Both the position numbers and the translations under genes were made by a program. Positions 3,154 to 34,346 of a DNA stretch of 64,000 nt are shown here, piece by piece; the first letter of the stretch is position 1; each line of letters opens with the position of its first letter. The DNA is from Sipunculus nudus (taxonomy: Eukaryota > Annelida > Sipuncula > Golfingiida > Sipunculidae), in NCBI GenBank assembly GCA_026874595.1, contig CM049313.1:19607508-19671507 (forward strand), given 5' to 3'. The notes below the pieces were generated by a model. That model searched no databases. It had not been told where the DNA came from and saw only the letters and a program-made list of their open reading frames with translations.

Positions 3154-6100
3154 CAATAATAATAATTATACCCACCCTAAAAAGAAAATAATTAAATTGT
3201 CCATCAACTCTATATTAGCGCCCAACTGTTCTCGAATTTCTGGATCCGCCACTGGTTTATATTTAAAATCTTCTTGGTTCTGCTGGGTAATGAGGCCATA
3301 TGACGTGAGGCGTCTCTAGTGGGTTTTGCTAACTTTGCCCTAGTCACAGTTTAAGAATACTTATGACCCTAAACAACCAATCATTTGAATATACTGTTTA
3401 TATATAATTTAGATTTCGGACAAATTCTGGCTGTCTTTACATTTATATTAAGTTAATATCTCGCTCAGATTATGCTGTATCTAAAGTTACAAAATTTGTC
3501 AACTGCAAATACAGAGAGAAATCATAGACACTTAAATAAATAAGCAATATGATTGACCTGTGAAAATCTGTCGAGATGTGGCAGTTCTAGGTGAGTAAAG
3601 GATTTAACATTCTGTGGCCGGCTTTTCTGTTCGTGAGGGTATCAAATTAACGATATTCGCGAAAGGGAAATTATAGCGAATATAAAGCATTCGTGAATAA
3701 GACGCCGCAACTTCACATTTGAAAATTCGCTTATAGGTAGCCTCACTGGTATCTTATAAACAAGGAAAATTTTTTTTATAATATCAAAACATATTTCATG
3801 TGATCCGAGAGTCAAAAATTTATACCATGCATTTATAAGATCTTAAAAGTAGGCCTATCTATTCTATAATGAACGAGAACTTCCACTCGTTCCAAATTCC
3901 CTGTATGGACCTCCCCTCAAATTGTAAAGAATCTTTCGAACATATTACACAGTTCATATAATAAAGGTTACGCCTTTATCAGTATACTATTTAACGAAAT
4001 CGCGAAAGTTCAACCTCGCAAAAATGAAGCTAACAACAGTATTCTTTTGTGCATACACCTTATGAATATTACCAGTTAAACGGGCCTTGGGATGTTGTGA
4101 AAAATCTGCCACTTTCTCAGATATTGTTTTAATTACTTTTCTAAAATAATCAATGTATGGTTTTGGTTTCTTCTATTAATTATGCCTATGCCTTATGTCC
4201 TCATTCTTTCAGGAACTGATATGGCACATTATAAAAACATCGCTGAACTGCCAGGGTGGAACAGTCAGAAACAGAAACAGAAACATTTTAGAGCTTCAGG
4301 ATGGGGAATTTTTTTATAGTTGCCTTCTGTTAAATATTTTTTTGTGTGGATGAGAATTTATTATCGGTTTCTCTTAACCTGAGTCTGACCAAACCTTTAT
4401 TGTATCTTTGTCTATTGTCTTGCGTCTTTGATGGTCTTCAAATAAGGTTGTAGAAAAGATCGCTAGGCGGCAGCACCATGATGAGGGTATTGTGAATGGA
4501 TCGATAAAGGCGTGCGAAAAAAAATTACCAGACTAGAATTTCAAAGATTGTAAGTCGGGTTACCATTTGACAAACATAAAACAATCGGAGAGAGCATATC
4601 TGGATTCGCATCAGGAAACACCATTGATTGTAAGCGATCCGCCTTAAAATTCAATTTTTACGTTATTACTCCATGGCTCACCCATAAGATTTAATGAAAA
4701 TGATGAGAATTTCATATAAATTTTGCAAAATTATTATAAAACAGGCACGTAGACATTAATGGGCTGGACCCTCTTCCAATCACCATTTAATTAAGTCGGT
4801 CCGCCCCAGGCTTTTGAAAATTATTGCTTACTTGCCCAAAGCCCAGCATTCCAATAAATTAGCACTGAAACTCATCAGTTATTTTCAGATATTATGAGGA
4901 CAAACAGAGAGACAGGGAGAGGTGAATAACAATGATTGCAGGTCTAAAACGGTCTTGATGGTTTGTACAGCGACCGGCAAACCCCCTAGTGACAGGAAGT
5001 TATGTGCATATTAAAATGGAATAAAACGCAATAAAGACATAACCCATTACATGTGCCATATGTGTTATGAATTATATGAACTCCTACACCTGCATTTAGG
5101 CTTGTGTCTAGAAATGCTTTAAACATAAACAGTTCACAGAGAAGTAACCTTCCTGAGAAATCAATTTGGGTTCATGCTACACAATCCCATAACATCAGGC
5201 AAACTGGTTACAATATTCACATGAACCTTCAAACTTATGCAAACATTCCACATGAATACACAAAAAAATGCCATTGCAACATGTCAAACAGGAAAAGCTG
5301 ATTTTATTCCATAAAATAACGTGCTAAGTAAACTGCATCGTTTAGATTAAAGCCTATATCACACGGAATAGGTGGTCCACAAGAGTAAACTTAAATAAAA
5401 AAATTCCAGGACCTGTGTTCGTCAATATTCAACCTGACTGACAACAGAAAACCCCCTCCCTATAGTTGATATTTTAACTACTTCCTGCAGTATAATTAAT
5501 TTTGCGAATTTATAACATAGCTGGGCACCAATTGCAGAAACCAACAGCTACATTTCTGCTTCTTAACTATAACAAGTGACCCAGGGGTCATGATGCTCAG
5601 CTGACCAGGAAGACATTGACAAAAGTAATTTTATCATCTGAATGTCAAATTTGAATGAAATACTTTTTCCAAACTTGACCTTTTGTATAAAATCATCCAA
5701 TATTCATTGGGGTACTATGGAGCTCTGTAGCATGAAGGATATGGGTAACAGACACCTATTTTCAAGGTTTACAAGATGACTTTTCAGGGGTCTCCCAGCA
5801 TGTCAAAAAATAAAATTCTAGGTCCAGTTATTATGATTTGTGCCCTGTTAACAAATCCAAATGTTTATTCTGGGGGGTATTTCAAAGCCGCATAGGATGA
5901 AGGATATGGGTAACAGAGATGTAATTTCAGGTGCACAAGGAGACTTTTCAGGGGCCTATCAGCATATCAAGAAAGGAGATTCTAGGTCAAGTCATTATAA
6001 TTTGTGCTCTGTTAACAGATGACCAAATCTTTATTCTGGGGAGTACTTCGGAGCCCAAGAGCATGAAGGATATGGGTAACAGGTACCTTATTTCGGGTTT

Positions 6101-9100
6101 CCATGTAGACCTTTTATGGGCTTCCCTGGAGGTGAGGACAGAAGATTCTAGGTCCAGTCATTATGATTTGTGCCCTGTTAATATATGACCAAATCTTTAT
6201 TCTGGGGGGTACTTCAGAGCAACATAGCTCATAGAATATGGGTAACAGGGACCTTATTTCGGGTTTCCATGTAGACCTTTTATGGGCTTCCCTGGAGGTG
6301 AGGACAGAAGATTCTAGGTCCAGTCATTATGATTTGTGCCCTGTTTACAGATGACCAAATGTTTAAAGATCACAAAAGTAGAGAAAAAAAATTGTAAAAA
6401 ATAAAAAAAATATAGGTGGCGCCACCAATCTCCAGAAATTGATGGAACACTCCATGATCAATATCCATGCAAAGAATCATGGTGATTAATGCATTAGTTG
6501 TTCAGATACTTGAGCTTTTGTATTAAATTTTGCATTATTCTGGGGGGTACTTCAGAACCCCATAGCTCAAAGAATATAGGTCACAGTGACCTAATTTCAG
6601 GTTTACAAGGAGAATTTCCATAGACCTCCCAGGATTTCAAGTAAGAAGATTCCCGCTCTAGCGGTTACGATTTGTGCCTTGTTAACAGACAGACGCCTGG
6701 ATGGCCGGACCGACGACGGACAAAAGGTGATCCCTACAGCTCAGATGACTTTCAGTCAGCTGAGCTAAAAATTGAAAAAATACAGGTGGCGCCACCAGAA
6801 TGCAGAAACTGATGAAACATTTCATGATCAATATCCATGCAAAGAATCATGGTGATCAATATTATAATTGTTCAGATACTTGAGCTTTTGTATCAAATTT
6901 TCCATTATTCTGGGGGGTACTTCGGAGCCCCATAGCTCAGAGGTTATGGGTAACAGAGACCTAATTTCAAGTTTTTTTAAGGAAACTTTTCATGGGCCTC
7001 TCAGCATGTCAAGAGAGTAGATGCTAGGTCCAGTTGTTACGATTTGTGCCATGTTAACAGATGACCGCATCTTATGAGGTCTCAAAAATAGAGAAAAAAA
7101 TTCGTAAAAATAAAAAAAATACAGGTGGCGCTACCATACTGCAGAAACTGATGACACATTCCATGATCAATATCCATGCAAAGAATCATGGTGATCACTG
7201 CAATAGTTGTTTAGATACTTGAGCTTTTGTATCAAATTGTCCATTATTCTGAGGGATACTTCAGATGACTTACAGTCAGCTGAGCTAAAAACACTTAATG
7301 GTCAATATCCATGCAAAGAATCATGATGATCTCCGTATTAGTTGTTCAGATACTTCAGCTTTTGTATCAAATTGTCCATTATTCTGAGGGATACTTCAGA
7401 GTCCTATAGCTTGAAGGATATGGGTAACAGAGACCTAATTTCAAGTTTCCACAGGCACTCTTCATGGGCCTCCTTGCATGACAAGAATGAAGTTTCTAGG
7501 TCCAGTTGTTGCAATTTGTACCCTCTTGATAGATAACATAGGTGGCGCCACCAGTCTGCAGGAACTGATGGAACATCTCATAATCAATATGTTACCAAAA
7601 ATCATGACCATCAGTGATGTAGTTATTGATGTATTGAAGTTTTTGTATGAAATTTTTGACTACTCTGGGGGGGTACTTTGGGGCCCCATAGCTCGAAGGA
7701 TATGGGTAACAGAGACCTAATTTTAAGTTTTTAAGGTGACTTTTCATGGGCCTCTCAGCATGTCAAGAGAGAAGATTCTAGGTCCAGTTGTTACGATTTG
7801 TGCCATGTTAACAGATGACCGCATCTTATGAGGTCTCAAAAATAGAGAAAAAAATTCGTAAAAATAAAAAAAATACAGGTGGCGCCACCATACTGCAGAA
7901 ACTGATAACACATTCCATGATCAATATCCATGCAAAGAATCATGGTGATCACTGCAATAGTTGTTTAGATACTTGAGCTTTTGTATCAAATTTTCCATTA
8001 TTCTGGGGGGTACTTCGGACCCCCATAGCTCAAAGGTTATGGGGAACAGAGACCTAATTTCAGGTTTCCAAAGAGACTTTTTATGGGCCTCCCTGCATGT
8101 CAAGAGAGAAGATTCTAGGTGTAGTCATTACGATTTGTGCCCTGTTAACAGATGGCCACATCTTCATCGGTCTCGAAAAAAGAGAAAAAAATCGTAAAAA
8201 TTTGAAAAAAATAGAGGTGGCGCACCCTCTCTGCAGAAACTGATGGAACAGCTCATGATCAATATGTATGCCAAAATTCATGACCATCAGTGTTGTAGTT
8301 ATTGAGATACTGCACTTTTTGTATCAAATTTTCCATTATTCTGGGGGGTATTTTGGACCCATACAGCCTAAAGAATATGGGTAACAGAGACCTAATTTCA
8401 GGTTTCCATGGAGAATTTTCATGGGTCTCCCTGTGTGTCAAGAATGAAGATTCTAGGTCCAGTTTTTATCATTTTTGCCCTGTTAACAGATGTTCATATC
8501 TTTAAAGGTCTCAAATATAGATAAAACATTCGTAAAAAAAAACCGAACAAATACAGGTTGTGCCACCAGTCTGCAGGAACAGAAGGAACACCTCTTGATC
8601 AATAGTTATGCCACAAATCATGACCATCAGTGAAGTAGTTATTGAGATATTGAAGTTTTTGTATGAAATTTTTGACTACTCTGGGGGGTACTTTGGGGTC
8701 CCATAGCTCGAAGGATATGGGTAACAGAGACCTAATTGCTGGTTTCCATGGAGACTTTTCATAGGTCTCTCAGTGTATTGATTGAAGATTCTAGGTCCAG
8801 TCGTTACGATTTGTGCCATGCTAACAGATGACAGCATCCTTAAAGGTCTCAAAAATAGAGGAAGAAATCGTAAAAAAAATCAAACAATATAGGTGGCGCC
8901 ACCAGTCTGCAGGAACTGATGGAACATCTCATAATCAATATGTATGCCAAAAATCATGACCATCAGTGATGTAGTTATTGAGATATTGAAGTTTTGTATG
9001 AAATTTTTGACTACTCAGGGGGGGGGGGGGGGGTACTTTGGGGCCCCATAGCTAGAAGGATATGGTTAACAGAGACCTAATTTCTGGTTTCCAAGGATAT

Positions 9101-12100
9101 TTTTCATGGACCTCTCAGTGTGTCAAGAATGAAGATTCTAGGTCCAGTCATTACGATTTGTGCCATGCTTACAGATGACAGCATCCTTAAAGGTCTCAAA
9201 AATAGAGGAAAAAATCGTAAAAAATCCAACGATAAAGGTGGCACCACCAGTCTGCAGGAAGTGATGACACATCTCATGATCAATAGTTATGCCACAAATC
9301 ATGACCATCAGTCAAGTAGTTAATGAGATATTGAATTTTTTGTATGAAATTTTTTACTTTTCTTTGGGGTAATTTGGGGCTCCATAGCTCAAAGAATATG
9401 GGTAACAGAGACCTAATTTCTGGTTTCCATGGAGACTTTTCATAGGTCTCTCAGTGTGTTGAGAATGAAGATTCTAGGTCCAACCGTTATGATTTGTGCC
9501 ACGTTAACAGATGACAGCATCCTTAAAGGTCTCAAAAATAGAGGAAAAAAATCGTAAAAAAATCGAACAATACAGGTGGCGCCACAAGTCTGCAGGAACT
9601 GATGGAACATCTCATGATCAATATGTATGCCAAAAATCATGACCATCAGTGATGTAGTTATTGAGATATTGAAGTTTTAGTATGAAATTTTTGACTACTC
9701 GGGGGGGGGGGGGGTACTTAAGGGCCCCATAGCTCGAAGGATATGTTTAACAGAGACCTAATTTCTGGTTTCTAAGGATATTTTTCATGGACCTCACAGT
9801 GTGTCAAGAATTAAGATTCTAGGTCCAGTCTTTACGATTTGTGCCTTGTTAACAGATGTTTACATTTTGAAAGGTCTCAAAATTAGAGAAAAAAATTCGG
9901 AAAAAATTGAACGATACAGGTGGCACCACCAGTCTGCAGGAAGTGATGGAACATCTCATGATCAATATGTATGCCAAAAATCATGACCATCAGTCAAGTA
10001 TTTGAGATATTGAAGTTTTTGTATGAAATTTTTTACTTTTCTGGGGGGTAGTTTGGGGCCCCATAGCTGGAAGGATATGGGTAACAGAGACCTAATTTCT
10101 GGTTTCCATGGAGACTTTTCATAGGTCTCTCAGTGTGTCGAGAATAAAGATTCTAAGTCCAGTCGTTACGATTTGTGCCTTGTTAACAGATGTTCACATT
10201 TTTAAAGGTCTCAAAAATAGAGAAAAAAATTCGTAAAAAATCGAAAAATACAGGTGGCGCCACCAGTCTTCAGGAACTGATGGAACCACTCATGATCAAT
10301 GTGTATGCCAAAAATCATGACCATCAGTCAAGTAGTTAATGAGATATTGAAGTTTTTGTATGAAATTTTGGACTTTTCTGGGGGGTACTTTGGGGCCCCA
10401 TAGCTCGAAGGATATGGGTAACAGAGACCTAATTTCTGGTTTCCAAGGAGATTTTTCATGGTCCTCCCAGGATGTACAGTAAGAAGATTCCAGTTCTAGC
10501 GGTTACGATTTGTGCCCTGTTAACGGACAGACGCCCGGACGGCCGGACGGACGACGGACAAAAGGTGATCCCTATAGCTCAGATGACTTACAGTCAGCTG
10601 AGCTTAAAATCAGCGATTGGGCTGTGGCGGCCATATTTAAATTTCTACAGAACTGTTATTCAATAGGTCTGGAGCCCTCGTATTACCAATCATCCCTGGG
10701 AAAGCTGAAGTATGTTGTTGTTGAGTTATTGCTCGCGAAAAAAAGGGTCACTGACTGAAGGACGGAAGGACGGACTAACACGGTGATCACTATAGGAACC
10801 CGCTTGTCAAGCGGGGCCCCAATAACAATAATAAGAATTCATCTGAGGATGGGTGCACGATATGTAAAAGATGAAAGGTTTTGTTTCCAAAGAAATGTGC
10901 CCAAAAACCCCCCGGATGCTGCTTTAGAATATTCTAGGCCTAATCAATACAATATGTGCCCATCTGACAATCAGGGTGCTCGTATGACATCTTTTTTTCC
11001 TACAGGTCGCAGAATTTAGATCACAGTGAACAAATTTCATGTTTCCAAAGACATTTGCCTAGGACCTCCCTGAATGTTATGTTAAAATATTCTAGGCCTA
11101 AAGATACAATTTATGCCCCGTCTACCTGAGTGCTCCAAATCATGTTTTCGGCCCACAAGTCGCAGAATATAGGCCACCGTGACCTAGTTTCAGGTTTTCA
11201 AGGACATTTGCTTAGGACCTTCCTGAATGTTACGTACGAGGATTCAAGGCTTAATGGCCGTCTGACTTTCTGGGTTCTCAAAAATCATAATTTCGGCTCC
11301 TAGGTCACATTACTCAGTTCGCCATTACCTAATTTCAGGTCTCCATGGAGATTTGCCAAGGATCTCCCCTGATTTACAGTTTGAAAGTTCTAGGTCCATC
11401 GGTTACGAGTTGTGCGCTATTAACGGGCGGACGGAAGGGCGAACATCCGGACAGACGACGAACAAAGGGTAACTGTCAGCTGAGCTAAAAACTGAGGGTG
11501 GACGACCGGTATGTGAAAGTTGAAAGGTTTTGGTGCAACGGTTTGGCTTGAAATGCGTCCACAAGCTTTTTCGAGAAGTAGGTCCTGTGGCCTTCACCTT
11601 TGACACCATTACCTCAAAACTAAACATTTCTTGGCACCGCAGGTGCCAGAGTATCCCCAGACATAGTAGCCCTCCCCCCCTTTAAGAACAGACCCCCATT
11701 TTTAGCATCAAATACTGACACTTGGCATATTTATTGTTTCTTCCATCTAACAATCCACAATCTTGTTGAAGATGTTGGTCCTGTGACCTTGATCTTTTTA
11801 AAGATGTGTCCTGTGACCTTGACCTTTGACCTTTTGACCCCAAAATCAATTTGGGTCTTGCTTTTCCAATGGGACATATGCAAGTCAAGTTTGAAATCTA
11901 TACATCAATAAAGCAGGAATTATCATCCAGAAACTAATTTTTTTGACAGGTGGCTCCTGTGACCTTCACCTTTGACCTTGTGACCTCAAAATTGATAGTG
12001 TTCTTCCTCTGTTGGCAGGAGAACTATATGTGCAAGATGAAAGATCTGAGATGAAATGTTTGGCTGAAAATGCATCCACATCTTTTTAAAGATGTGTCCT

Positions 12101-14455
12101 GTGACCTTGACCTTTGACCTCATGACCCAAAAAATCAATTTTGTTTTTGCTTTTCCAATGGGACATATACAAGTCAAGTTTGAAAACCATACATCAATAA
12201 AAGCAGGAATTATCATCCAGAAACCAATTTTTGGACAGATGGCTCCTGTGACCTTCACCTTTGACCTTGTGACCTCAAAATTGATAGGGGTTTTCCACTC
12301 TTGGCAGGTGAACTATATGTGCAAGATGAAAGATCTGAGATGAATTGTTTGGCTGAAAATGCATCCACAATCTTTATAAAGAAGTTTCCTGTGACCTTGA
12401 CCTTTGACCTCATGACCCAAAAATCAATTCCGGTCTTGCTTTTCCAATGGGTCAAATACAAGTCAAGTTTGAAATCCATACATCAATAAAAGAAGGAATT
12501 ATCATCCAGAAACTAATTTTTGGACAGATGGCTCCTGTGACCTTCACCTTTGACGTTGTGACCTCAAAATTGATAGGGTTCTTCCTCTCTTGGCAGGTGA
12601 ACTATATGTGCAAGATGAAAGATCTGAGATGAATTGTTTGGCTGAAGATGCATCCACAATCTTTATAGAGAAGTTTCCTGTGACCTTGACCTTTGACATC
12701 ATGACCCCAAAATCAATTCAGGTCTTGCTTTTCCAAAGGGGACATATACAAGTCAAGTTTGAAATCTATACATCAATAAAAGCAGGAATTATCATCCAGA
12801 AACTAATTTTTGGACAGGTGGCTCCTGTGACCTTCACCTTTGACCTTGTGACCTCAAAATTGATAGGGGTCTTCCACTCTTGGCAGGTGAACTATATGTG
12901 CAAGATGAAAGATCTGAGATGAATTGTTTCGCTGAAATTGCATCCACAACCTTTATAAAGAGGTTTCCTGTGACCTTGACCTTTGACCTCATGACCCCAA
13001 AATCAATTCCGGTCTTGCTTTTCCAATGGGTCAAATACAAGTCAAGTTTGAAATCCATACATCAATAAAAGAAGGAATGATCATCCAGAAACTAATTTTT
13101 GGACAGATAGCTCCTGTGGCCTTGACCTTTGACCTTGTGACCCCAAAATTTATATGGATTATCCATTATTGGCAAGTGAGCTATATATTCAAGATGGAAG
13201 ACCTGGGATGAAAGTTTGGCTTAAAATGCATCCACATCTTTTTAAAGATGTGTCCTGTGACCTTTACCTTTGACCTCATGACCCCAAAATCAATTTGGGT
13301 CTTGCTTTTCCAATGGGACAAATGCAAGTCAAGTTTGAAATCCATACATCAATAAAAGCAGGAACTATCATCCAGGAACTAATTTTTGGACAGATGGCTC
13401 CTGTGACCTTCACCTTTGACCTTGTGACCTCAAAACTGATAGGAGTCTTCCTCTATTGGCAGATGACTTATATATGCAAGATGAAAGGTCTGAGATGAAA
13501 TGTTTGGCTGAAAATGCATCCACAATCTTTTTTAAGGATGTGTCCTGTGACCTTGACCTTTGACCTCATGACCCCAAAATCAATTGGAGTTTTGCTTTTT
13601 CAATGGGACATATATAAGTCAAATTTGAAATCAATACATCAATAAAAGCAGGAATTATCATCCAGAAACTAATTTTTGGACAGATAGCTCCTGTGGCCTT
13701 GACCTTTTACCTTGTGACCCCAAAATTTATATGGATCATCCACTATTGGCAAGTGAGCTATATATTCAAGATGGAAGACCTGGGATGAAAGTTTGGCTTA
13801 AAATGCATCCACAGTATCTTTTAAAATGCCAGTCCAGTGACCTTGACCTTTGACCTCATGACCCTAGAACCTATAGGGTTCTTACTTTAGTGGTGGGCCA
13901 TACATAAGTCATGTTTGAAATCCATATGGCTATCAACACTGGAGATATCATAAGAGGTGTGTGATTTTCACGATATATGGCAATATTCAAGGTCAAGGCA
14001 ACGCTCATGTGAAAGGTCATGACCCCAATTTAAATAAACATCATCCCATAACCCATACCTATGTATATGCATAATATAAAAGAAATCTGTCCATTAGTTT
14101 TTGACTTATAATGCTCACAGTACTGTAAGGTGGCAATTTTGGGGGTATTAAACGGCATGAAAACAAGTAAAGAATAATAGGTGGCGCCACCAGTTTCTGG
14201 AACATGACAACCCTATCCATGATCTTCCATCAACTTGATTTTGGGATAAATCCATGCAAGATTTCTTGAGATATTAAAGAATTTGTGTGATTTTCCCCAA
14301 AACTGGACCTATTCAAGGTCAAGGACACTCTCCTAGTAAAGGTCATGACCTCATTTTAAATAGGCGTCGTCCTCTTACCCATATCTATACATATACCAAG
14401 TTTGGTAAAGTTCCGTAAAATATTTTTTGGGTTATCGCGCCAACAAGATTTATAT

Positions 14456-14486
<31 letters not shown>

Positions 14487-17400
14487 GACCGGTATGAAAA
14501 CATAGTATCCCCCGACTTTGTCTGGGGATACAATTAAAAGGTTTCTTCATCTGAGGGTGGGTGAGCTATATGTGAAAGATAAAGATTTTGGTCAAACGGT
14601 TTAGCTTGAAATAGGTCCACAAGCCAGTTCTGGACGGATGGACGGACGGACGGCACGACGCACGAACGGAGGCGTTTAATACTAATCCCCTCCTTCAACT
14701 TCGTTGCGAGGGGATTATAATGGGCAAATGCAGCGATTAACAAAATTAATACCAGGCAGTTGGTGCTCACTACAAATAACATCCAAGAGAAACAGGAGCG
14801 GCGATTCCCTAGTTTTATTTGTGTGTGTGTGTGTGTGTGCGTGCGTGCGTGCGTGTGTGTGTGTGTGTGTGTGTGTGGGCCTTGGTAAAATTGTAAATCA
14901 TCAAAGTAGTTTCCTTTTTTGAATATGTAAATAGGGGTATTATACTGATAAAAGTCTGGACTTTGTGCTACCAGGGGAAATATGCCTTCCCCATAGGTTT
15001 GCAGAGTCTTCGTGAGTGAAGGCGTAATTAAGGCTTTGCTTCATGAATAAATTTAATTATTAGCTTGTTGTGAGTTACAAAACCTCCGAAATATCATTAC
15101 GAATCACAAAATCAAAAGAAAAATAAAAGGATCATACATTAACTCCCACTTTCATGGCAAAGCAAGCCATGTACCCGACTCGCAGTTGGAGGCGATGAAA
15201 GACCATAACATTAATTATGCATGGTCATAAAGCTAAATATTTTGTGTGAATGCCGTAATGTATTGTAAAGGCCTGTTGACATGCTTATATATGACGTTTA
15301 TGGCGTTGATTTCACTATATTTCATATTGAAAGAAATAAAGAGATGTGCAAAATTTAGACATAGTAACGTGACCGTATGGCCCCTGACACACGTGCCGGT
15401 TTTGAGTCCCGGTTTGCTCCGGCGCATCCCGGGGTCTCTCTGCTACGGTTGACCACGGTTTTTACTCTAAAATCTGGATGAATTCTGTACTGACGGTGCT
15501 TTTAAGGTTTCAGTAGGGTTCTCCTACGGATATATTTATAATATATAAAAAAATATATGCAAACTCTAGATCAACTGGTAATGGTTAAAACTTTAAAACT
15601 AGATGTGTCGGAACGACACGAATGCCCCCGCCTTGGGCAAATTAGAAACATTTGTAAAATTTTGAAAATTTTTTTAAGTTCAGGAGGTGTCGTATGGTCA
15701 AAAGTAGGTCAACAAGGGCAAAATGCAAACTCGATCTGTAACGGGTCATTATCAAGCAACACACCAAAAATCATGCCAGTATATGCAGGCATTGTGAAAA
15801 AAAATCCATACATGTGCATTTTCCATAAAAATTTCTGTCTTTCATGAAATTTTCTATGTTTAGGAGCCGTAAAACGGTCAAAAGTAGGTCAACCGGGACG
15901 AAACGCGAACTCGATCTGTAACTGGTCTATATCTGTCCACACATCAAAAATCAGGCCAATATCTGCAGGCATTGCGAAAAAAAAGTCCGTACATGTGTAT
16001 CTGTCATGAATATTTCTATTTTTCATGAAATTTTCTATGTTCAGGAGCCGTAAAACGGTCAAAAGTAGGTCAACCAGGACGAAACGCTAACTCGATCTGT
16101 AACTGGTCTATATCTGCTCACACACCAAAAATCAGGCCAATATCTGCAGGCATTGCGAAAAAAAGTCCGTACATGTGTATCTGTCATGAATATTTCTATT
16201 TTTCATGAAATTTTCTAAGTTTAGGAGCCGTAAAACGGTCAAAAGTAGGTCAACCGAGACGAAACGCGAACTCGATCTGTAACTGGTCTATATCTGTCCA
16301 CACACCAAAAATCAGGCCAATATCTGCAGGCATTGCGAAAAAAGTCCGTACATGTGTATCTGTCATGAATATTTCTATTTTTCATGAAATTTTCTAAGTT
16401 TAGGAGCCGTAAAACGGTCAAAAGTAGGTCAACCGGGACGAAACGCGAACTCGATCTGTAACTGGTCTATATCTGCCCACACACCAAAAATTAGGCCAAT
16501 ATCTGCAGGCATTGCGAAAAAAAGTCCGAACAACTGTTTGATTTCGGAATGACGGATGGACGGAATGACGGAATGACGGACATGGGTAAAACTATATGCC
16601 CCGGCCACTTTGTGGCGGGGGCATAAAAACCTCCGTCCCTAAATACCCAGGTCCCTCGGGCAACAACTGCTTTATTAGCGGGCCCTGAAAACCTCACTTT
16701 ATAGTGCTGACAAGGAACGCTTGATTATAAGTTTGTGCAGTCCTAACATTGCCATAATACAGACGCTTTAACTATCGCCCTGGAGGCACTGAGAGCCCTT
16801 CCCTTTTTGCTCCGTATCTATGGATAGAGCTGAGACAGACACTTCATCATCAAACCGATTCTCTGCCTGAGACTGATTCTTGGAGGCTACGTTCCTGGTT
16901 TTCCTTTCATCTAGTTAAGTATTTTGAACTGCTTAAACATCGAACTGCACAGAAATGGCAAATGCCTGAGCTCTCATAGGTGTCGGAGCCTCATATGGCC
17001 CCGGGCTAAGCCCGTGCGAGCGCCGGTAAACACCGTTGTGGACCCCAGTAAACCGTAGTAAAATCTATTCACCACACTGGCGTCTTTCGAGAGCAGGGGA
17101 AGACCGTTCTGGCAACCTTCTAGCGCCCTCTTTGGCCCGTAGTTAAACGGGTTTAATTGGCGTGAAACCATACTATAAAACTACTGGAACAGTAAATAGC
17201 CCGTAGGAGGACCCTTGTAAAACCTTAGAAGGACCGTAAGTATAGAATTTAACCCTGGTTTTAGAGTAAAAACCGTGGTCGACTGTAGCAGAAGTGCACA
17301 GGGATGCGCCGGGCAAACAGGGACGCAAAACCGGGAATATGTGACAGAGGCCAAAGCAACCTCTAACATGTCCATTACTGACATGAATATATATATATAT

Positions 17401-20400
17401 ATATATCTTGTACTTTTACTAAGTAAGTTTATATCTGTAAACGTATTTAGAGTATTATGCTCGTGTGGACTCGCTAACACTTAAAATATACTTTTCAAGT
17501 TAAATGTGAAGTTCCATTTTATTAGAAAATACACGAAATTTCATATGATCCTTCTTTCATGTGACCCATCACTATGCATTAGGTAACATTTGATCAGCTG
17601 AAACTAAAGCAATGATACAATATACTTACTTAAAGACTAAACCGAATGGTTTACTGTTACGTTCTGCGTAGACCAAGCCCACTGGCGCCATCTGTGCCCC
17701 GCGACATGGAGTGGGACCTTCCAGACTGAATATCTTCATTGCTTCATCGGGATCGAACAAGTGAACCATTTTCATCGGACCAAGGTTTTCTTTATAGATA
17801 AGGCCATACTTTCTCATGTACTTCATCCGGTTCTCAAAGATCTTCTCCATACTGTATGGACCTGTGTATAACACGAGTGGTGCGTCAACTTCTTAACAAA
17901 GAGCAAATATATGCAATAATAATGATTACAGCTGCATGACGATCTAAATATATATGTATTATTATACTTCCGCCAGGTGGGGAGGCAAAATATTTTACCC
18001 TTGTTCGGTTGTCTGTTTGCAATTTTACGCTTCAAGTTATTGACGGATGTTGGAAATATTTTGTGGAGGATCAGGTAACACTCAATCCATGAATTTTTGG
18101 AGGTAACCTGGATCACCGGAATATACTTAAAGGGCTCTTTATAGAGACTGGCTTTGTTATAGAGCTCTGCTCACCCGTGAAGCGGATTGGTGCACCCTGA
18201 AAATCTGTACACAGGAACACAGGATATGGGATATAGGCGAAGGTACTTCGACTTCTGCTTAACGTTACAAATGGTATATTCCGCATACTTTTAGGAGGAA
18301 TAGAGGACAGTGTTTATCGATTTGAATTCATTTTGTGTTAGCATTTTGTCATTTTTATATGAATATCTGATATATGATAACTGCATAACAGCTGAAATCA
18401 GCTTATCATAAAATCTTGGGTCTCCTCTTACAGTAGGTCTTCTCAACTATGGAGATACGTGAATCTAGGACTACGCTTTACAATTTGCAAAAAAAAAAAA
18501 AAAACCTTATGCTATTACCCTGACCCGAAAGTCATGAAACCACTAATATTACGAAATGAACAGCCAGTATATAATATTAATGAAAATTTAAAGGTAGTTA
18601 CAATATTTTATTACTTCTGCCGTGCGGCTTATGTTTTCATGTATTTCACGCATGTTTGTTGCATGTTGGTCAGTTGCGTATGTCTGTTTGGCTCCACTCT
18701 ACAGGCCACATTTTGCAGTAATCGCTTTCAAATTTACACATTTGATTGACAATCACAAGTCCAGGGAGCCTCTTGTTTTGGTCAAAGGTCAAGGAAAAAC
18801 CACAAAGTATTTTTTTCATATCTTCGTCCAGAATCATCATAGCCACAACTAGATGTGTCAGAACGACACGAATGCCCCCGCCTTGGGCAAATTAGAAACA
18901 TTTGTAAAATTTTGAAAATTTTTTTAAGTTCAGGAGGTGTCGTATGGTCAAAAGTAGGTCAACAAGGGCAAAATGCAAACTCGATCTGTAACGGGTCTTT
19001 AACAAGCAACACACCAAAAATCATGACAGTATATGCAGGCATTGTGAAAAAAAGTCCATACATGTGCATTTTCCATAAAAATTTCTGTCTTTCATGAAAT
19101 TTTCTATGTTTAGGAGCCGTAAAACAATCAAAAGTAGGTCAACCGGAATGAAACGTGTACTTGATCTGTAACTGGTCATTATCTGCCCACACACCAAAAA
19201 TCAGGCCAATATCTGCAGGTATTGTGAAGAAAAGTCTGTACAAGTGTATTTGTCATGAAAATTTATGTTTTACATGAAATTTTCTATGTTCAGGAGCCGT
19301 AAAACAGTCAAAAGTAGGTCAACCAGGACGAAATGCGAACTCAATCTGTAACTGGTCAATATCTGGCCACACACCAAAAATCAGGCCAATATCTGCAGGC
19401 ATTGCGAAAAAAAGTACGTACATGTGTATTAGTCATGATATTTCATATTTTTCATGAAATTTTCTATGTTCTGGAGCCGTAAAACGGTCAAAAGTAGGTC
19501 AACCAGGACGAAACGCGAACTTGATCTGTAACAGGTCTATATCTGCCCACACACCAAAAATCAGGCCAATATCTGCAGGCATTGCGAAATAAAAGTCTGT
19601 ATTGTGTATCTTTCATGAATATTTCTATTTTTCATGAAATTTTCTATGTTTGTACAACGGTCAAAAGTAGGTCAACCGGGACGAAACGCGAACTTGATCT
19701 GTAACTGGTCTATATTTGCCCACACACCAAAAATCAGGCCAATATCTGCAGGCATTGCGAAAAAAAGTCCGTACATGTGTATCTGACATGAATATTTCTA
19801 TTTTTCATTAAATTTTCTAAGTTTAGGAGCCGTAAAACAGTCAAAAGTAGGTCAACCGGGACGAAACGCGAACTCGATCTGTAACTGGTCTATATCTGTC
19901 CACACACCAAAAATCAGGCCAATATCTGCAGGCACTGCGAAAAAAGTCTGTACATGTGTATTGTCATGATATTTCATATTTTTCATGAAATTTTCTATGT
20001 TCAGGAGCCGTAAAACGGTCAAAAGTAGATCAACCAGGACGAAACGCGAACTCGATCTGTAACTGGTCTATATCTGCCCACACACCAAAAATTAGGCCAA
20101 TATCTGCAGGCATTGCGAAAAAAGTCCGTACAACTGTTTGATTTCGGAATGATGGAAGGACGGAATGACGGAATGACGGACATGGGTAAAACTATATGCC
20201 CAGGCCATTGTGGCGGGGGCATAAAAATCTCATTTTATTCGTCATTCCGCAGCCTTTTGTTAATGTGTAGCTGTCTCAAATACGTTGGAACCATGGTTAC
20301 TTATTTCAGGGAATATTCATGTTATTCGGGAATAATAGGTCTACTTTTTCGAACTTCGTCAGTTTTGAAGCTAGAAAGGCTAGTTTTTTTACATCAGGTA

Positions 20401-22065: not shown

Positions 22066-22112
<47 letters not shown>

Positions 22113-23986: not shown

Positions 23987-25009
23987 GAGATTCCTTCCGT
24001 GATTGCGTGAGTTATGTTCTGAAAAAAAACATACAAAACACACACACGAACAAGGATGATCGCATACCCTCCTAGCGAGACAACTAGATGGAGACAATCG
24101 CCAAACGAAAGCCAAGTCCAACGCATCCCCCCACCCCTGTCAACAACTAGGCGATAACGGAGAATCATTTACGGAGTGTTGGTCAATGTCAAAATTAAAT
24201 ATCAGGTGTAAATTTCATATTTAAAAAATCAGCCATATTGAAGATCCAGCGCAAACAGAAAATGAGAGAAGAAAGAAAAAAAAAGGGGGGGGGGGGAATG
24301 TATTGTTTTTTGCACGGGGGCGTGGGGAGCAAAGTAGGCGACCCACAAACATTTTACCAAAATATGGATATGGAAATAAACTTATCACCCATGTAACCCT
24401 CCGCTTCCTAAAGGGTAGGCTTAACTAGGAATTACTATCAGAGCGTACACCGACACCTGCTTCAGCACCCAAGCATCCTCCCATTTATAAACCATCTCCT
24501 GGCATTCCACATTAACTCCAGGCCTGAAAAGGCAAATAGCCGAAAAAAGAGTAAGTGCTCTGGAAAAAAAAAGAGCAGACTTCTTTGATATAAAGAGTGA
24601 AAAAAAAGTTACATAAGCGACAATTTCCCATTTTTCATCACAGAGTGAATAAAGACGTGCTTCGCACACCACAATTGTGTATACATATCGATGCATTTTC
24701 ATTCCCGAAGACAGAATTATGTATGACGCATATCCCCCTCTATGAAGATAAGGGCATTTTTCACATGATGTGACACATGCTGGACATTTGAAAAAAAATA
24801 CGGAATTTTTCAATCTTGTTTTAACTGGACTGTTAAAGCAGGAGAGAGTATTAGTATATACTGGAATTCTTTCATGTGCCGGAACGACTCGATTGCTATA
24901 TTAAGAAATATTTTTGAAAGTGTTGGTGTATCAATTAAGCAATGCTGATGGAACAAGAATTTTATCATTGCCTCTTTATGATGATAATAAGAAATTCGAT
25001 GAAATATTC
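23987..25009. other. Upstream region of the P450 gene
   Basis: Likely holds the 5' UTR and promoter of the minus-strand P450. No TATA box or initiator could be singled out. A G-run occurs near 24286-24296. ORFs on the minus strand (24421-24813, 24810-25064) lack recognisable domains and are not supported as exons. Confidence 0.4.
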
Positions 25010-25882
25010 TTATTAAAGGGGTATAACTCCTCGTGAAATGTTGGTCAAGCAGAAAGAAATGCAAACTGACCTGTAAGGGATCTTTCTAAGAGTGAACGCC
25101 AAAGATCAGTTCAATACCTGCAGGCTTAATTAGAAATAATTAGAATTAGAAATTAAGAACCTTATGAAATTGTCTTTTGAACAGGAAGTGTCATGTGGTC
25201 TGAATAGTAACATCCATGGACTTGAATTTGTGGTAAATCTCCTGTTGAGAATACAAGATCAAGTGTTGATCCATAAACACCGGGGGGGGGGGGGGGTTCT
25301 GGATAAATGATGTAGCAGATGTAAATAATTTATGAATGTAGCAGTACTGTTGTTTGGTAACGAAGGGAACTTTTATATCTTTCGAAGATTTTGTAATCTT
25401 GTTTTCTAGGTCTACTGCAATTAGAAGCTTTACTGTCCTGATGATTTCTGTCCTCAAAAACCGTCCGTACAAGTACATTTTTAAAGAAAATTTCTATTTT
25501 TTCAGTTCAGAAGCCGTCATACCGTCAAAAGTAGGTCAGCCGGGATAAAACACGAACTCGATCTGTAACTTGTCATTATCCAACCACATACCGAAAATCA
25601 AATCAACATCTGCAGGCATTGCAAAAAAAAAGTCTGTACATGTGCGATTATCAAGAATTTTTCTATTTTCCATGAAATTTTCTAAGTTCAGAAGCCGTCA
25701 CACCGTCAAAAGAATGTCAATCAGCCGGGATGACGATCTTAAACCAGTCACCTTCCAAACACACATCGAAAATTAGGTCAACATCTGCAGGCATTGCAAG
25801 AAAGGTCCGTACAACTGTCGGATTTCGGAATGACGGAACAACGGACATGGGTAAAACTATATGCCCCGGCCACTGGGACATA
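25010..25882 (+). mobile_element. Family A element, copy 3 (decayed)
   Basis: Diverged core units (about 25515, 25695), with CATCTGCAGGCATTGC at about 25605 and 25780. A shortened GACGGAACAACGGAC tract and a broken terminal hairpin (TATGCCCCGGCCACTGGGACATA split by base loss, 25860-25882) follow. The left hairpin is not preserved. A (G)n run is at about 25281-25295. Confidence 0.6.
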
Positions 25883-25936
25883 AAAAAAAAGGAAAAAAGA
25901 GTGGGCCTGAACTTACTGACATTAATTGAGAACTAG

Positions 25937-26700
25937 ACATATTTGGCACCGCAGGTGCCATAGTATCTCCAGACAATTAATCCCCCCCCCCCTCCTTAAG
26001 AACAGGCCCTCATCTTCAGCAGCATATACTGACACTTGGCAAGCCATCTATCAACTTAAGAAACAATATTTTTCACCAACTATGGGGGCCAATACGATGA
26101 AACACTCTTGAGCAGAGACCATTAATTTATTTTACGAAATCGGGAAGGTAGGTGGCGCCACCAGTCTAGTTTACGAGAAATCCAAGATTGATTGACATGC
26201 GGAATTTAAGACCAATAACTTGAACCACTGTGAAGATATGAGCAATTTTCACCCAAAGCACATGTACAGATGGACGCCACAGCAAAACGATTGTAGATGG
26301 CACCACCAGCCTTGACTACAAGATAGAGGTGTCCAAGATCTATGGATATGCACTATTTCAGGCCAATAGAGCAAATCAGTCCTGAGAAAAGAGCATTAAT
26401 TAATTCTACAGAAACAAAAAAAAAAAGGATAACAGGTGGCGCTACCAGTTTCCAGTACATAACAACACTATCAAAGATCTTCGATCAAGTTGATTTTTGG
26501 ATCAATCCATGCAAGATTTCTTGAGATATTTAAGAATTTGTGTGATTTCCACCAAAAATGGACCTATTTAAGGTCAAGGTCACTCTTCTAGTAATGGTCA
26601 TGACCACATTTTATATAGGTTTTGTCCTCTCATCCATATCTATGCGCATGTCAAGTTTGGTAAAGATTTGTGAAATATTTTTTTAAGTTATCGCATCCAA
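25937..26700 (+). mobile_element. Family C-related element, 5' end and body
   Basis: The left hairpin GGCACC-GCA-GGTGCC (25945-25959) and TATCTCCAGACA match the 5' end of the complete C element. The body has GGTGGCGCCACC at 26151-26162 and GGTCAAGGTCA-containing sequence near 26570. No CGG tract or closing palindrome, so the 3' end is lost. Confidence 0.6.
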
Positions 26701-26756
26701 ACGAAATCTCTGCCTGTCACACGCCCAGCTCCCTCGACTTGACAAACAAATTGAGT

Positions 26757-28235
26757 AAACTAGGGACCCATGGGTCTCGACGCTCAGCTGCATTTGTATA
26801 TTAGGATATATATTTATGAGGTTTTCCGAAATATTGGTCTTGTGATCAGTTTGAAGCCAACCTGTCTACCCAAACTTGAGTTATCATTCATAAACTAATT
26901 TGTGAATGGATGGGCCCTGTGACCTTAACCTTTGACCTTGTGACCACAAAATCAAAAGGAAACTTCCCCTATTGGCTTAAAGTGCATCCACAATCTAGTG
27001 GGTCCTGTGACCTTGACCTTTTGATCTCATGACCCCGGAATCAACAGTTCTTAATTTAGTGGTGGGCCATATATAAGTCAAGTTAGAAACCAATATTTCA
27101 AACCAAACTGGTGTTATCATCTGGAAACTAATTTGTGGCTAGATTGCCTCATGACCTTGACCTTTGACCCTGTGACCCAAAAATCCATAAGTTACTTCCA
27201 CTTTTGGCAGGTGAGCAAATCTGGAAGACAGAAGGTTTGGGAAAGAAAGTTTGGCTAAAAATACATCAACAATCTTTTTAAAGAAGTGGGTACCGAGAGC
27301 TTGACCTTTGGCCTTATGACCCAAAAATCACAAGGATTCTTACATTACTGGTGGGTTATATATGAATCAAAATTGAAACCAATATGTCAATCTAAACCTA
27401 AGTTATCATCCAGAAACAAAGATGTGGACAGATGGGCCCCTGTGACCATGACCTTTGACCTTTGACCTTGTGACCCCCAAATCAATCAGTGTCAGCTCAG
27501 CTATATGTGCAAGATGGAAGGTTTGGGATGAGAAGTATGGCTTAAAATGCATCCACAATCTTTCTAAATAAGTGGGTACTATGACCTTGACCTTTGACCT
27601 CATGACCCGTAAACTGAACAGAATCTTCCCCTTTTAGCAGGTGAGCAATATCTTGAAGATGGAAGGTTTGGGATGAAAAGTTTGGCTTCAAATGCATATG
27701 CATTCTTTTTAAAAGAAATGAGTCCTGTGACCTTGACCATTGAACCCCAAAATCGACACGGTTCTTACTTTATTGGTGAGTCATATATAAGTTAAGTTTG
27801 AAACCAAGATGTCAAACTAAACTGGAGTTATCATCTGGAAATTAATTTGTGAACAGATGGCGCCTGTGACCTTGACCTTTGACCATGTGATCTTAAATTT
27901 ATTTATGCTCTCCCCATACTGGCAAGTCAGATAAATGCGCAAAATGGAAAGTTTGGGATAAAAAAACTTGGCTTAAAATGCAGCCATAATCTTTTTAAAT
28001 AAGTGAGTCTTGTGACCTTGACCTTTGACCTTGTGACCCCAAAATCCTTTGACCTTGTGACCCCAAAAGGTTCTTGCGTAAGTGTTGGGCCATACATAAG
28101 TCAAGTTTGAAATCCATGAGTCTATACAACCAGGAGTTATCATCTGGAAACAAATTTGTGTGGATGGACGGACGGACAGCTAGACAGACAAACAGACAGA
28201 CAGACAGGGTGATAACTATATCGCATCCACTTGTG
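26757..28235 (+). mobile_element. Family F element (TGACCTTTGACC-rich cores)
   Basis: The left end has the perfect palindrome GACCCATGGGTC (26765-26776) and GCTCAGCTG (26782-26790), like families B and E. The body carries at least six TGACCTTGACCTTTGACC-type motifs in ~290-bp units related to family C. A GGACGGACGGAC/(CAGA)n tract at 28165-28207 marks the right end; a final hairpin is only weak. It looks like a family B-type 5' end joined to a family C-type body. Confidence 0.6.
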
Positions 28236-28309
28236 ATCAATAAACACACCAGGTTTTGGGACACTGGATGTAATTACAGCTGAGAAACTGACATGACTGT
28301 TGTCATTTT

Positions 28310-28690
28310 ATAGTAAAAAAAATAAAAAATATTCGTTAAAATAAGAAAAAATACAGGTGGCGCCACCACTTTTCAGGAACTGACAAAACTAGTCATTGTC
28401 AATATTCAAGGCAAGATTCATGACAATCCGTGCATTAATTATCAAGAGATAGGAGGTTTTGTATTATATTTTCTTATTATTCTGGGGGGTACTTTCAAGC
28501 CCCATAGCTCGGAGGATATAGGTCACTGTGACCTAATTTCAGGTTTCTAAGGAGATTTTTTATTGATCTCCTTGGATGTTCACTTAGAAGTTTCTAGGAC
28601 CAGCAGTTACGATTTGTGCCCTGGTAACGGACAGCCGGACAAAGCGCCATTCCTATACCTCAGTTTGCTTACAGTCAGCTGAGCTAAAAA
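28310..28690 (+). repeat. Family B fragment, single core and 3' end
   Basis: GGTGGCGCCACC at 28356-28367, one ~340-bp core, a GGACAGCCGGAC tract, and CTCAG...CAGTCAGCTGAGCT ending at about 28686. Confidence 0.65.
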
Positions 28691-31221: not shown

Positions 31222-34200
31222 ACAACAAGGGACCCATGGGTCACGGCGCTCAGCTGATCGTGATTGGACTATAAATGTTTCTCCACTGTGATACTATATC
31301 GAGTCGATAAAGCTTATGAATATCATGTACATGTTGGGCTATTATAAAGGAATGTAATGTAATATGTGAGTAAATGATGAATGAAATTACCTAACTGATG
31401 AATTAATAGAGTCAAATAAAGTGGTTTATTTTTTATTCATTTAGGAGGGGTTGAAACTGTGATATATTTGAGCAAATATGAATGCAATGACAGCAGTAAT
31501 AAGCAGTAGTAGAATGGTGATAAGGCTATTTGTTGAAGGGTCTAAAGTGTATGGTAGTCTGCAAGCGTTCAATTTGACAGATATGATGTTATGATTAACT
31601 ATGCTGATGAAGTGATTTATGAATATGTGACTGTATGACACAATATCTCTTTAGTCTTGACAAGGTACATTATTGTGATGCCCTTTATGTCTACATATTA
31701 CACAATATTGACATAATTTCTGGCATGTACATAGGTATCTATGGACGAATAGTTATACAAAATATTAAAGTATGAATATATCTGATTCATATTGTTCTTG
31801 CTTACTGAAGCTGACTTTGGGATGGGGTTCGGAGAAGGGAAAAGTGAGGGCAGCACGAAGGTGGATGTAGAAATATTCTATTGTAATGTTTTTCATTTAT
31901 ATAAGAATATGAAAAGCTAAGAGGAAACGGGCCCTCCTACTTGGTTATAGTAAAGTTCTAAATATATGATTGCAAACTAATACTCTGACAAGACTGTCAT
32001 GAAGAAAAACAGTAAAAGTTTTGAGATACTGTGTTGCATAAGAAAATTTACAGATGGACAGGCAAGTGGACAGAATGGACTGATACCTTTATTTCACTTT
32101 CACGAGAATAATGCATTTAAGTTTATATATAATCCTATTTTTTTAAGCAGATCCACTTTTTCCATTAAGAAGTTTTTATCTGAATCATTTTTTTATTTAC
32201 AGGTTTATAAATTTTTAATTAAAAAACCTGAAAATATAAGTTAAAAAATTAGAATTGTTGCAAAAGTTGCAATCATTATATATACAGAGTAAAAAACATA
32301 GGGTCATATTATGCATACACATATATTTTATTATTTTTAAATCATAAATGTTTAAACTGATTTTAAAAGAAAATAATGCTACAACATGGCATCTACAAGA
32401 ATATTCCTTGAATCACTATTAAAAAGTTTTGCACATTGGAGTTTTCAGGACATGCTTAATTTTATTCACCAAAATAAAATAAAAGTAAATTTGATAAAAT
32501 AAAACATCTTTTCAAATAAAGTATACACACTGTTGGTTGAATGAGGGACAAACAATATCATTGTGCTAATTACTATCCCAGTTTTAATTAATTACTGGAA
32601 TTAATAGTCAATTTCTCACCTGGTGAAGTTTTTACTCTTCTGAAGTAAGGAATTACTTATCTCATGAACATCCACACTTTCACAGCAATACACCACTTTG
32701 TGGACACAATTAAATGTACACTTTAATCATTGTAACCCTGGTGGTTCATTCATCTAGTTTATGCACCAGCTGGGGGGATGAGTGCAGGGCAGAGGGGAAG
32801 CCTGCTAGTAGTGGCCAAGCTGGGCCAAGGTAAGCTGCCTGGGATGGGTTACATAATGCAAGTGAAGGCTGTACTACTCGGTGGGCTAGATGTAAACAAC
32901 ACTTGACATGGTGTATGAAAACATGAATAAAAGCTATTCATTCCAATCAATTTCTTTGAAAGTTCAGATTTTAAAAGATTAAATCCTTATGCATATATGC
33001 TGGAAAAATTAAATCAATAGTGCCAAAGTTGGACAAAATTTAAGGTATTGATTTTTTATTTATGCTAATAACTTGAAAAATTTGCAAAATTCAGATCTAA
33101 TTTTGGGTAAACAATTGAATCTTGATTAAATAAAGTTATATTCCTGAAAAAAAGTCTCTAGGTTCAGCAATTCTCATGTTAGGTGAGTAAATATATTTCC
33201 TGATTTTTTTAAAAATTGCATTGTTTTGGCCCATAATTTCATAATAATACCCAATACTGACCTAATTTTTGGTATGTTCATAGAAAATGTATAAAAGAAT
33301 GTGAATACTAAATACGATCAAAAACAGATCAGTGGTTTTGATTTTAGGCAGCCTTGAAGTGTAAGTCTAACAATGGCTTTTTTATGGAAAACAGAGTTTT
33401 TTTCCTTAATATCTCGAAGAAACAAAGTCCTAATGACCCAATTTTCGGTATGGTAGGAGATTTTGGGGACATCTAAAATTATGTCAACAGCCTGAGGAGC
33501 ATAGAGATGTGCACTGAATGACCTACAGTCATCAAAGTGGACTGCTTGACAATGTAAGGGAATTAACACAAGAGCCTCCAAAAAAATTCAATAACTAGCC
33601 TAATTTTGCAGCTTTTATTTTCAAATTTCAGATTTTAACAGATTAAATCCTTATGTATACATGGTGTGAAAATTAAATCCACAGTACTTACAGGAAAAAA
33701 ACGTGCCATGGCCAAAGTTGGGCAAAATTTAAGGTACCAATTTTATATTTTTGCCAATATTTAAAAAAAATTTAACAAATTTTGATTTAATTTTTTGTAT
33801 ACAATTAAATTTTGATTAATTAAAGTTTTATTACTGGAAAAAAGTCCCTTCCTTTAACACTTTTGGTCTTAAGTGACCAAATATCTTCCTGATTTTTTTA
33901 CAAAGTCCATTATGTTTGGGCCCATAACTTTTTTAAATTATATAATACTGACTTAATATCTGGCATGTACATAGGAACTATATAGAGGAATATTTATGGT
34001 AAATATGAAGAAAACCAGATGAGCGGTTTTGATATTAGGCAGTCCTGAAGTGTGAAAATAGATTTCTAATAAAAAATTGAGGTTTTTCCTTAATATCTCA
34101 AAGGAACGAAGTCCTATTGACCCAATTTTTGGCATGGTAGGAGATTATGGGGACATCTAACTGTATGCCGAAATTCAGATTCGTAGGTCCAACGGTGTCA

Positions 34201-34346
34201 AAACGTGCCAGTCTTACGGACGGACATCCAGACGGACAGACAGACAGACGGACGGACGGACGGACGGACGGACAGACAGACGGACGGACGACGGACAATG
34301 GACCATGACTATAGCTCAGATGACTTATAGTCAGCTGAGCTAAAAA
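31222..34346 (+). mobile_element. Family E element: same ends as B, different body
   Basis: The left end has the perfect palindrome GACCCATGGGTC (31231-31242) and GCTCAGCTGA (31248-31257). The body is AT-rich with long degenerate units of ~670-690 bp (GATTAAATCCTTATG at about 32976 and 33639; AATACTGAC.TAAT..TGG at about 33250 and 33945; a third remnant near 31710). A (GGAC)n/(CAGA)n tract is at 34213-34293. The terminal hairpin AGCTCAG...CTGAGCT is at 34313-34341, followed by AAAAA. No transposase frame was seen. Confidence 0.75.

Follow-up and report, generated by a model that had tools for sequence, protein, structure and literature searches.

Repeat families with satellite-like cores in Sipunculus nudus as probable non-autonomous Helentrons sharing 3' ends with coding Helentrons

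Helentrons encode Rep, helicase, and endonuclease domains, and the deletion derivatives described alongside them, HINEs and DINE-1, have subterminal inverted repeats (subTIRs) and a 3' stem-loop in common with them and enter T-rich targets with a variable number of Ts and no target site duplication (TSD) (PMC4067079). The Cg_HINEs of the oyster Crassostrea gigas carry a subTIR, an inverted repeat, and a GTCY-type microsatellite on one side, a subTIR and a palindrome on the other, and a tandem core resembling satellite DNA between them, likewise in T-rich targets and with no TSD, and in group 2 of these elements related flanks surround unrelated cores (PMC7492417). By description, the modular bivalve elements pearl CvA/CvE, DTC84, and MgE and the BIV160/Cg170 satellites are similar in having satellite-like central repeats (PMC7492417, PMC5139131). 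HINEs are thereby described as dispersing satellite-like repeats in bivalve genomes, with the autonomous partners in oyster left unresolved (PMC7492417); a study of oyster Helitron-like elements detected no autonomous sequences (PMC7992393).

Here we analyze 64,000 nucleotides of the genome of the sipunculan Sipunculus nudus (assembly GCA_026874595.1, contig CM049313.1, positions 19,607,508 to 19,671,507; below, the window), which contain several repeat families, chiefly A, B, and C, of a similar design. The families are very probably HINEs, that is, non-autonomous members of the Helentron group of rolling-circle transposons, among which pearl elements are counted, lying here on the minus strand; A and B appear to descend from Helentron lineages of their own by shrinkage that spared the ends, with a piece of the 3' untranslated region (UTR) amplified in A and in part of B. 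The observations behind this conclusion are the end layout, the copy numbers, one empty and one nested insertion site, coding Helentrons that share the 3' ends, and similarity between UTRs and cores. An earlier note on this DNA had likened the families to pearl and Helentron-associated elements, and the published descriptions agree (PMC7492417, PMC4067079). While HINEs are an already known kind of element, the origin of the cores and the regional orientation of the copies are possibly new points.

On the minus strand the elements run from a T run through a subTIR, a short loop, the inverse of the subTIR, a microsatellite, and a tandem core to an inverted subTIR, a palindrome, and a CTAGTT-like 3' end; the microsatellite is of the GTCC/TCCG type in A and B and of the CCG type in C. 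The earlier note had the families start with hairpins on the left, and the hairpins and motifs it quoted for A, B, and C are indeed found there, but since the elements lie on the minus strand, the left side is the biological 3' end and the right side the 5' end. The A palindrome occurs at 15605 and 18855, and in decayed form at 24876, with ATGCCCCCGCC 2 bp further inward; the B palindrome at 5578 (one mismatch), 26765, and 31231 is accompanied by GCTCAGCTGA (one mismatch at 26782), and the C palindrome at 11633 and 25945 by TATCCCCAGACA (one mismatch at 25964). The palindrome lies outside the 3' subTIR with at most one mismatch in seven of the eight 3' ends in the window, and directly outside it these seven carry AAC[T/A]A[G/A], which is complementary to the 3' terminus; the eighth, that of the copy A3, is decayed. 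Two features differ from the Helentron derivatives of PMC4067079: the cores form long tandem arrays, of which some resemble Helentron 3' UTRs, and between the palindrome and the CTAGTT-like end there are 1 to 8 bp.

The inverse of the left motif lies within the right-end hairpin at 16614 and 20212 in A, at 14519 in C, and exactly in six of seven B-type right ends (the seventh, at 35778, is mutated), as the earlier note had claimed; another C hairpin, at 1020 (one mismatch), lies beyond the range it covered. Motifs and inverses together give A, B, and C subTIRs of 10 to 12 bp near both ends, compared with about 11 to 15 bp in HINEs. The tandem cores were confirmed with TRF, and the right end of element F is weak, as had been remarked. 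Further right ends were found at 1020-1045, 10782-10829, 14674-14716, and 35745-35778, and these may include the families D and H that the note named without coordinates. A de novo 5'-end detector, whose criteria were fixed after the families had been seen, returned six matches, all on the minus strand (A1, C1, J, and the B ends at 6773, 10608, and 34346), with the plus strand empty; 40 dinucleotide shuffles, from which the minisatellite of the window was excluded, yielded none on either strand. The remaining 5' ends fall below the detector's criteria through mismatches or loss of the inverted repeat or microsatellite.

The 3' termini are CTAGTT-like in all three families, so that the ends are not wholly unrelated, as the earlier note had held the families to be. 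A block resembling TATAG-N2-ATCACC is present in B and two further families and, more weakly, in A; in a joint test of A, B, I, and K, with the blocks anchored by eye, none of 20,000 shuffles was as good. C matched none of these four singly, and the pattern gave 5 matches against 1.4 expected, a figure equalled in 1 of 100 shuffles, so we rejected the block as a feature of all families.

We searched the window's own genome (1.43 Gb, in which the window lies on the contig labeled C8) and found 2,812 occurrences of the A palindrome (2 for the backward control), 14,388 of a 26-place B pattern (0), and 2,189 of a 31-place C pattern (0). Copy borders coincide with the recognised ends: all seven A loci displayed from other parts of the genome end in AAACTAGAT, with differing flanks beyond it (an eighth locus, on the other strand, stood outside that display). 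A paralogous empty site is provided by two copies of a coding Helentron (group 2, see below), one on contig C3 with an A element and one on contig C7 without it, which are 96.5% and 97.8% identical on either side of the element. C7 reads CATCAACAAGAAAAAATAAAA, and C3 reads CATCAACAAGAA ahead of CTAGATG and then AAAAAATAAAA following GGGGGCAT, the sole surplus being two As of the run (Ts on the element strand); the target is otherwise not duplicated, as the earlier note had anticipated of empty sites. The copy C1 interrupts a C-type core monomer, and its flanks, once joined, best restore the monomer at the junction of CCTCAAAA and TTAAAAGG or 1 to 2 bases leftward (score 90, against 62 and 44 for the single flanks and 85 for the next joins), also without duplication. 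Insertion into a T run with no TSD is thus seen at one A empty site and one nested C site.

These two sites bear on the idea that the families are miniature inverted-repeat transposable elements (MITEs) or other terminal inverted repeat transposons moved by cut and paste. Short inverted repeats close to both ends would be expected of such elements, and pearl was originally described as a MITE (PMC7492417), but the TSD is absent at both sites, the ends are asymmetric with the microsatellite confined to the 5' side, and Rep and helicase genes carry the same 3' ends; we find this explanation barely credible, and for A the empty site largely refutes it. Canonical Helitrons, with a 5' TC, a 3' CTRR, and insertion between A and T, would account for the CTAG present in four of the seven readable window 3' ends and in all seven displayed A loci, and oyster Helitron-like elements have been described as mixing Helitron and Helentron features (PMC7992393). 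Yet the 5' ends here consist of a T run and subTIR with no TC, the A insertion is within a T run, and endonuclease-type domains lie downstream of the Rep and helicase, and we regard canonical Helitrons as highly improbable.

Coding Helentrons with the same 3' ends are present in the genome. A search with PF14214 (Helitron_like_N), in which 150 of 195 candidates were scored, gave at least 143 matches, a number in which some genes figure as two separate pieces. At 19 of these Rep loci we read part of the downstream DNA: group 1 (L024, L026, and L031), group 2 (L047 and L049), eight more, and a last six read for 1.8 kb each, two of them extended, so that misses among the six are weak. Seven of the 19 are followed by a correctly oriented end with an exact A or B palindrome, six of them B and one A. 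The B palindrome follows the B subTIR at L047 and L049 (one mismatch over the 11-mer for this pair) and at L080, L082, L086, and L094, the A end lies at L083 with one subTIR mismatch, and L095 has a degenerate B end; stray words that we did not count are B-like ones in the opposite orientation (L087), a B 5'-type hairpin (L096), and single subTIR-like words with no palindrome (L081, L093, L098, and L099). Group 2 has the full Helentron complement of Rep (Helitron_like_N), PIF1 helicase (2e-23), and AP-type endonuclease (Exo_endo_phos above cut-off), and its copies lose similarity 6 bp past the B palindrome. The A-ended L083 has Helitron_like_N (3.8e-28) and PIF1 (4e-24), with a downstream endonuclease match of 22.6 bits under the cut-off of 24.5. 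L080, L082, L086, and L094, which we label group 3, have a downstream open reading frame (ORF) in common and a Rep at all four loci; the endonuclease of L080, the sole group 3 domain scan, reached 24.3 bits against the same cut-off. The last 34 bp of the window end of G equal the end of the group 2 Helentron L068 at 34 of 34 bases (32 in the other group 2 copy), and the window end at 5571-5604 equals three group 3 ends at 33 of 34 bases and the fourth at 32.

Twenty-three of the 30 best-scoring Rep loci, linked at 90% identity, form group 1; in two of its copies, read for 7.6 to 8.1 kb upstream and 7.8 to 9.0 kb downstream, we found no A, B, or C palindrome and one stray word like the C subTIR. 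A group 1 copy at C8:80130611-80150570 and its counterpart on contig C4 (L050-L059, L024, and L026) are similar at both edges over a span of about 20 kb, which holds DUF6570, OTU, Rep, and endonuclease domains with tandem repeats on either side; termini were not found in it.

The cores of some families resemble the 3' UTRs of these Helentrons. We aligned six Helentron 3' stretches with nine cores, using shuffles and the opposite strand as controls. The A core monomers scored 55 against the 3' UTR of the A-ended Helentron (shuffle maximum 31 to 32, opposite strand 20 to 24, z 13 to 14), and the B cores of elements x1 and H scored 43 to 64 against the four group 3 UTRs (shuffle maxima 26 to 33, z 8.8 to 21). 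Across families there was no match, either of A cores to the UTRs of B-ended Helentrons or of x1 and H to the A UTR, and the opposite strand stayed at background. Two copies retain larger pieces: A3 holds, at 24904-25451, three pieces (303, 151, and 66 bp; 79 to 82% identity) of the endonuclease/3' UTR stretch of L083, and the B copy L075, elsewhere in the genome, keeps 524 bp (85.5%) of group 2. These remnants fit deletion derivatives in some of which a UTR piece would have been amplified later, and the sequences suggest that the satellite-like cores of A and of part of B are tandemly amplified 3' UTR pieces of their own Helentron, the direction of transfer being our inference. The B core may resemble BIV160.

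These comparisons also bear on the earlier note's proposal that all families are moved in trans by a single Helentron enzyme, the families having converged on one end design. In its favor are the common layout, the single B end type over differing cores (166 and 338 bp, C-type in F, and AT-rich in G), the CTAGTT-like 3' ends of all three families, and the lack of a separate source for C among the 19 partly read Rep loci. However, the Helentron copies that carry A ends are not those that carry B ends, the latter being of two kinds, and Helentrons with core-like UTRs carry ends of the same family wherever such similarity is present; because of this, the single-source idea is unsupported, and we judge it unlikely. 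The coding partners are of several kinds, not a single source. The note had also suggested a search for a Rep/helicase gene with matching ends, which we found for the 3' ends of A and B and not for C at these 19 loci, and a shared enzyme source could still apply to C.

Several results weigh against deriving the families from their own Helentrons. The C palindrome is present at none of the 19 Rep loci, and 11 of them have neither an A nor a B end in the downstream DNA read (six of the 19 stretches spanned 1.8 kb only, which makes misses weak). The reading frame of the A-ended Helentron is broken, and in group 2 the autonomous 5' ends were not reached in 11 to 12 kb upstream of Rep. Against the group 3 UTRs, the 338-bp B core (z 1.4 to 3.0) and the 166-bp B core (z 2.5 to 3.7) are weak and the E core intermediate (z 3.0 to 7.1); the C and G cores match none of the six Helentron 3' stretches, and the final 200 bp of group 2 match none of the nine cores. 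A core-like UTR could also be a core captured by a Helentron.

In the mechanism that we consider most compatible with HINEs, a Helentron Rep would nick the right (5') end within the T run, the helicase would unwind the element 5' to 3', the 3' subTIR and palindrome would act as terminator, and the single strand would be joined into a T run elsewhere with no target duplication, the derivatives thus being moved in trans. A and B would have arisen by shrinkage of their own Helentron lineages with the ends retained, presumably including 5' ends identical to those of the autonomous copies, and tandem amplification of a 3' UTR piece would have made the satellite-like core of A and part of B; C may follow the same rule. 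Whereas ten autonomous Helentrons of C. gigas could not be related to Cg_HINEs (PMC7492417), A and B are tied here to coding copies through their 3' ends and, in part, through the likeness of UTR and core. This gives a specific path, open to testing, by which a transposon UTR could become a dispersed satellite.

The elements of the window are collected in Table 1. The 3' hairpin of Helraiser is described as a terminator that can be bypassed (PMC4778049), and the composites (the element at 5571-10608 and F) likely arose through terminator bypass and recombination between cores.

Table 1. Elements and isolated ends recognised in the window
Feature	Positions	Strand	Remarks
HINE copy A1, 180-bp core	15597..16629	-	3' end left (AACTAGAT + palindrome + subTIR); 5' end right (microsatellite + inverted repeat/subTIR hairpin + T run)
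HINE copy A2, family A	18847..20227	-	ends and tandem core
Decayed A copy A3	24870..25888	-	decayed palindrome; pieces of Helentron L083 inside
Composite B element	5571..10608	-	one 3' end (5571-5604), three 5' ends (6739-6770, 7268-7291, 10564-10608); 166- and 338-bp cores
B-type element x1	10883..11491	-	5' end 11476-11491; core like group 3 Helentron 3' UTR
HINE copy C1, 289-bp core	11620..14533	-	nested in C-type core monomer; no TSD upon rejoining flanks
C copy C2	25931..26694	-	3' end present; right end unrecognisable
Another C copy, right part and 5' end	1..1045	-	
Element F	26758..28247	-	B-type 3' end and C-type core; weak right end
Element E	28318..28690	-	B-type core and B 5' end
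Element G	31224..34346	-	B ends and AT-rich core
Element H	34880..35778	-	B 5' end with mutated subTIR; core like group 3 Helentron 3' UTR
5' end of further HINE family I	10782..10829	-	
5' end of further HINE family J	14674..14716	-	

Inverted arms of about 150 bp (15378-15529 and 17201-17353; 80.5% identity) flank A1 on both sides and are possibly a foldback or terminal inverted repeat element into which A1 inserted. Degenerate repeats at 47433-48035 carry a palindrome of the GGTGGCGCCACC type common to the B and C cores.

Every A, B, or C element identified in the window is on the same strand, and genome-wide the strands are split nearly 50:50 (A 1405/1407, B 7085/7303, and C 1039/1150). 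We sampled orientation at the 100 places that head the list of each family; these places are all on contig C1, and pairs among them are not independent. Cross-family pairs within 50 kb were on the same strand in 85 of 93 cases (A-B 44/50, A-C 21/23, and B-C 20/20), and agreement fell to 0.57 to 0.69 at 200 kb to 1 Mb and to 0.34 to 0.55 past 1 Mb. Within families, agreement at 10 to 50 kb was 17/18 for A, 90/98 for B, and 11/12 for C; between neighbors at any distance it was significant in B alone (81/99; A 57/99 and C 58/99). Among 100-kb blocks that held at least two families, each with a majority strand, 27 of 30 agreed, against a random-sign mean of 14.2 with none of 20,000 trials as high. 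Under a stricter circular-shift null, agreement as high was found at 50 kb in 73 of 20,000 trials for A-C, 508 of 19,990 for B-C, and 1,460 of 20,000 for A-B, and at 100 kb, of 20,000, in 120, 16, and 2,965, respectively, so that A-B alone is not significant at either distance. Of the 100 B copies listed first, on contig C1 at 0 to 5.6 Mb, 83 lie on one strand, the first 34 all alike. One A insertion, on contig C3, is opposite in strand to its host Helentron.

As a control we used a tRNA B-box word, whose same-strand pairs at 10 to 50 kb numbered 5/11 after nine matches in a tandem array at 3.70-3.87 Mb were dropped (20/26 with them) and which agreed with HINEs within 50 kb in 5 of 15 cases. 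It also agreed with B at 50 to 200 kb in 10 of 10, so that this control is small and not clean. The same word recurs about every 10.4 kb on one strand at C1:3698668-3750564, which may represent a tandem array of genes.

L1 and other elements are described as preferring particular strands with respect to replication and transcription (PMC10030826), and in bacteria the orientation of IS200/IS605 tracks replication (PMC5371812). Helentron derivatives might similarly insert on the strand that the polarity of the region dictates, most likely the one left single-stranded at the replication fork, as in IS200/IS605, or else by transcription; unrelated HINE families within about 50 to 100 kb would then be co-oriented and jointly map fork or gene direction, with their cores being amplified 3' UTR pieces of the parent Helentron. 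We put this combined proposal forward tentatively and with more doubt than confidence, because the neighbor tests are not significant for A and C and the control is not clean. Gene strand is a serious rival. Between A1 and A2, an exon candidate at 17629-17892, also on the minus strand, has CYP11A1 as its best PDB match (E 4.3e-07) and a Pfam p450 match (0.016) under the cut-off, and by sequence is likely an exon of a mitochondrial-type cytochrome P450. For Cg_HINEs, integration in both orientations is reported, the available part of that account containing no regional analysis (PMC7492417), and no title among those listed in literature searches concerns regional Helitron orientation. If the pattern is confirmed, counting copies could test whether eukaryotic rolling-circle transposons insert in step with replication.

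Searches beyond this genome found no relatives of the window elements in IMG/VR, GTDB contigs, or plasmids; pattern matches there were judged to be chance, and blastn of the window against 11 viral loci from IMG/VR was empty. Rfam gave no match on the window, and an exact-letter literature search with six end and core words found a single publication, an unrelated one. A Pfam scan of 136 window ORFs of at least 70 amino acids (aa), from which low-complexity and minisatellite ORFs were excluded, returned four weak families and no Rep or PIF1 domain. The minisatellite, at 53004-59497, consists of about 167 copies of a 39-bp unit with a strong skew of C over G and has plus-strand stop-to-stop frames of 330 to 810 aa; one 200-aa piece of it matched Peptidase_M78 (7.3e-06) and other Pfam families, matches that look like low-complexity chance.

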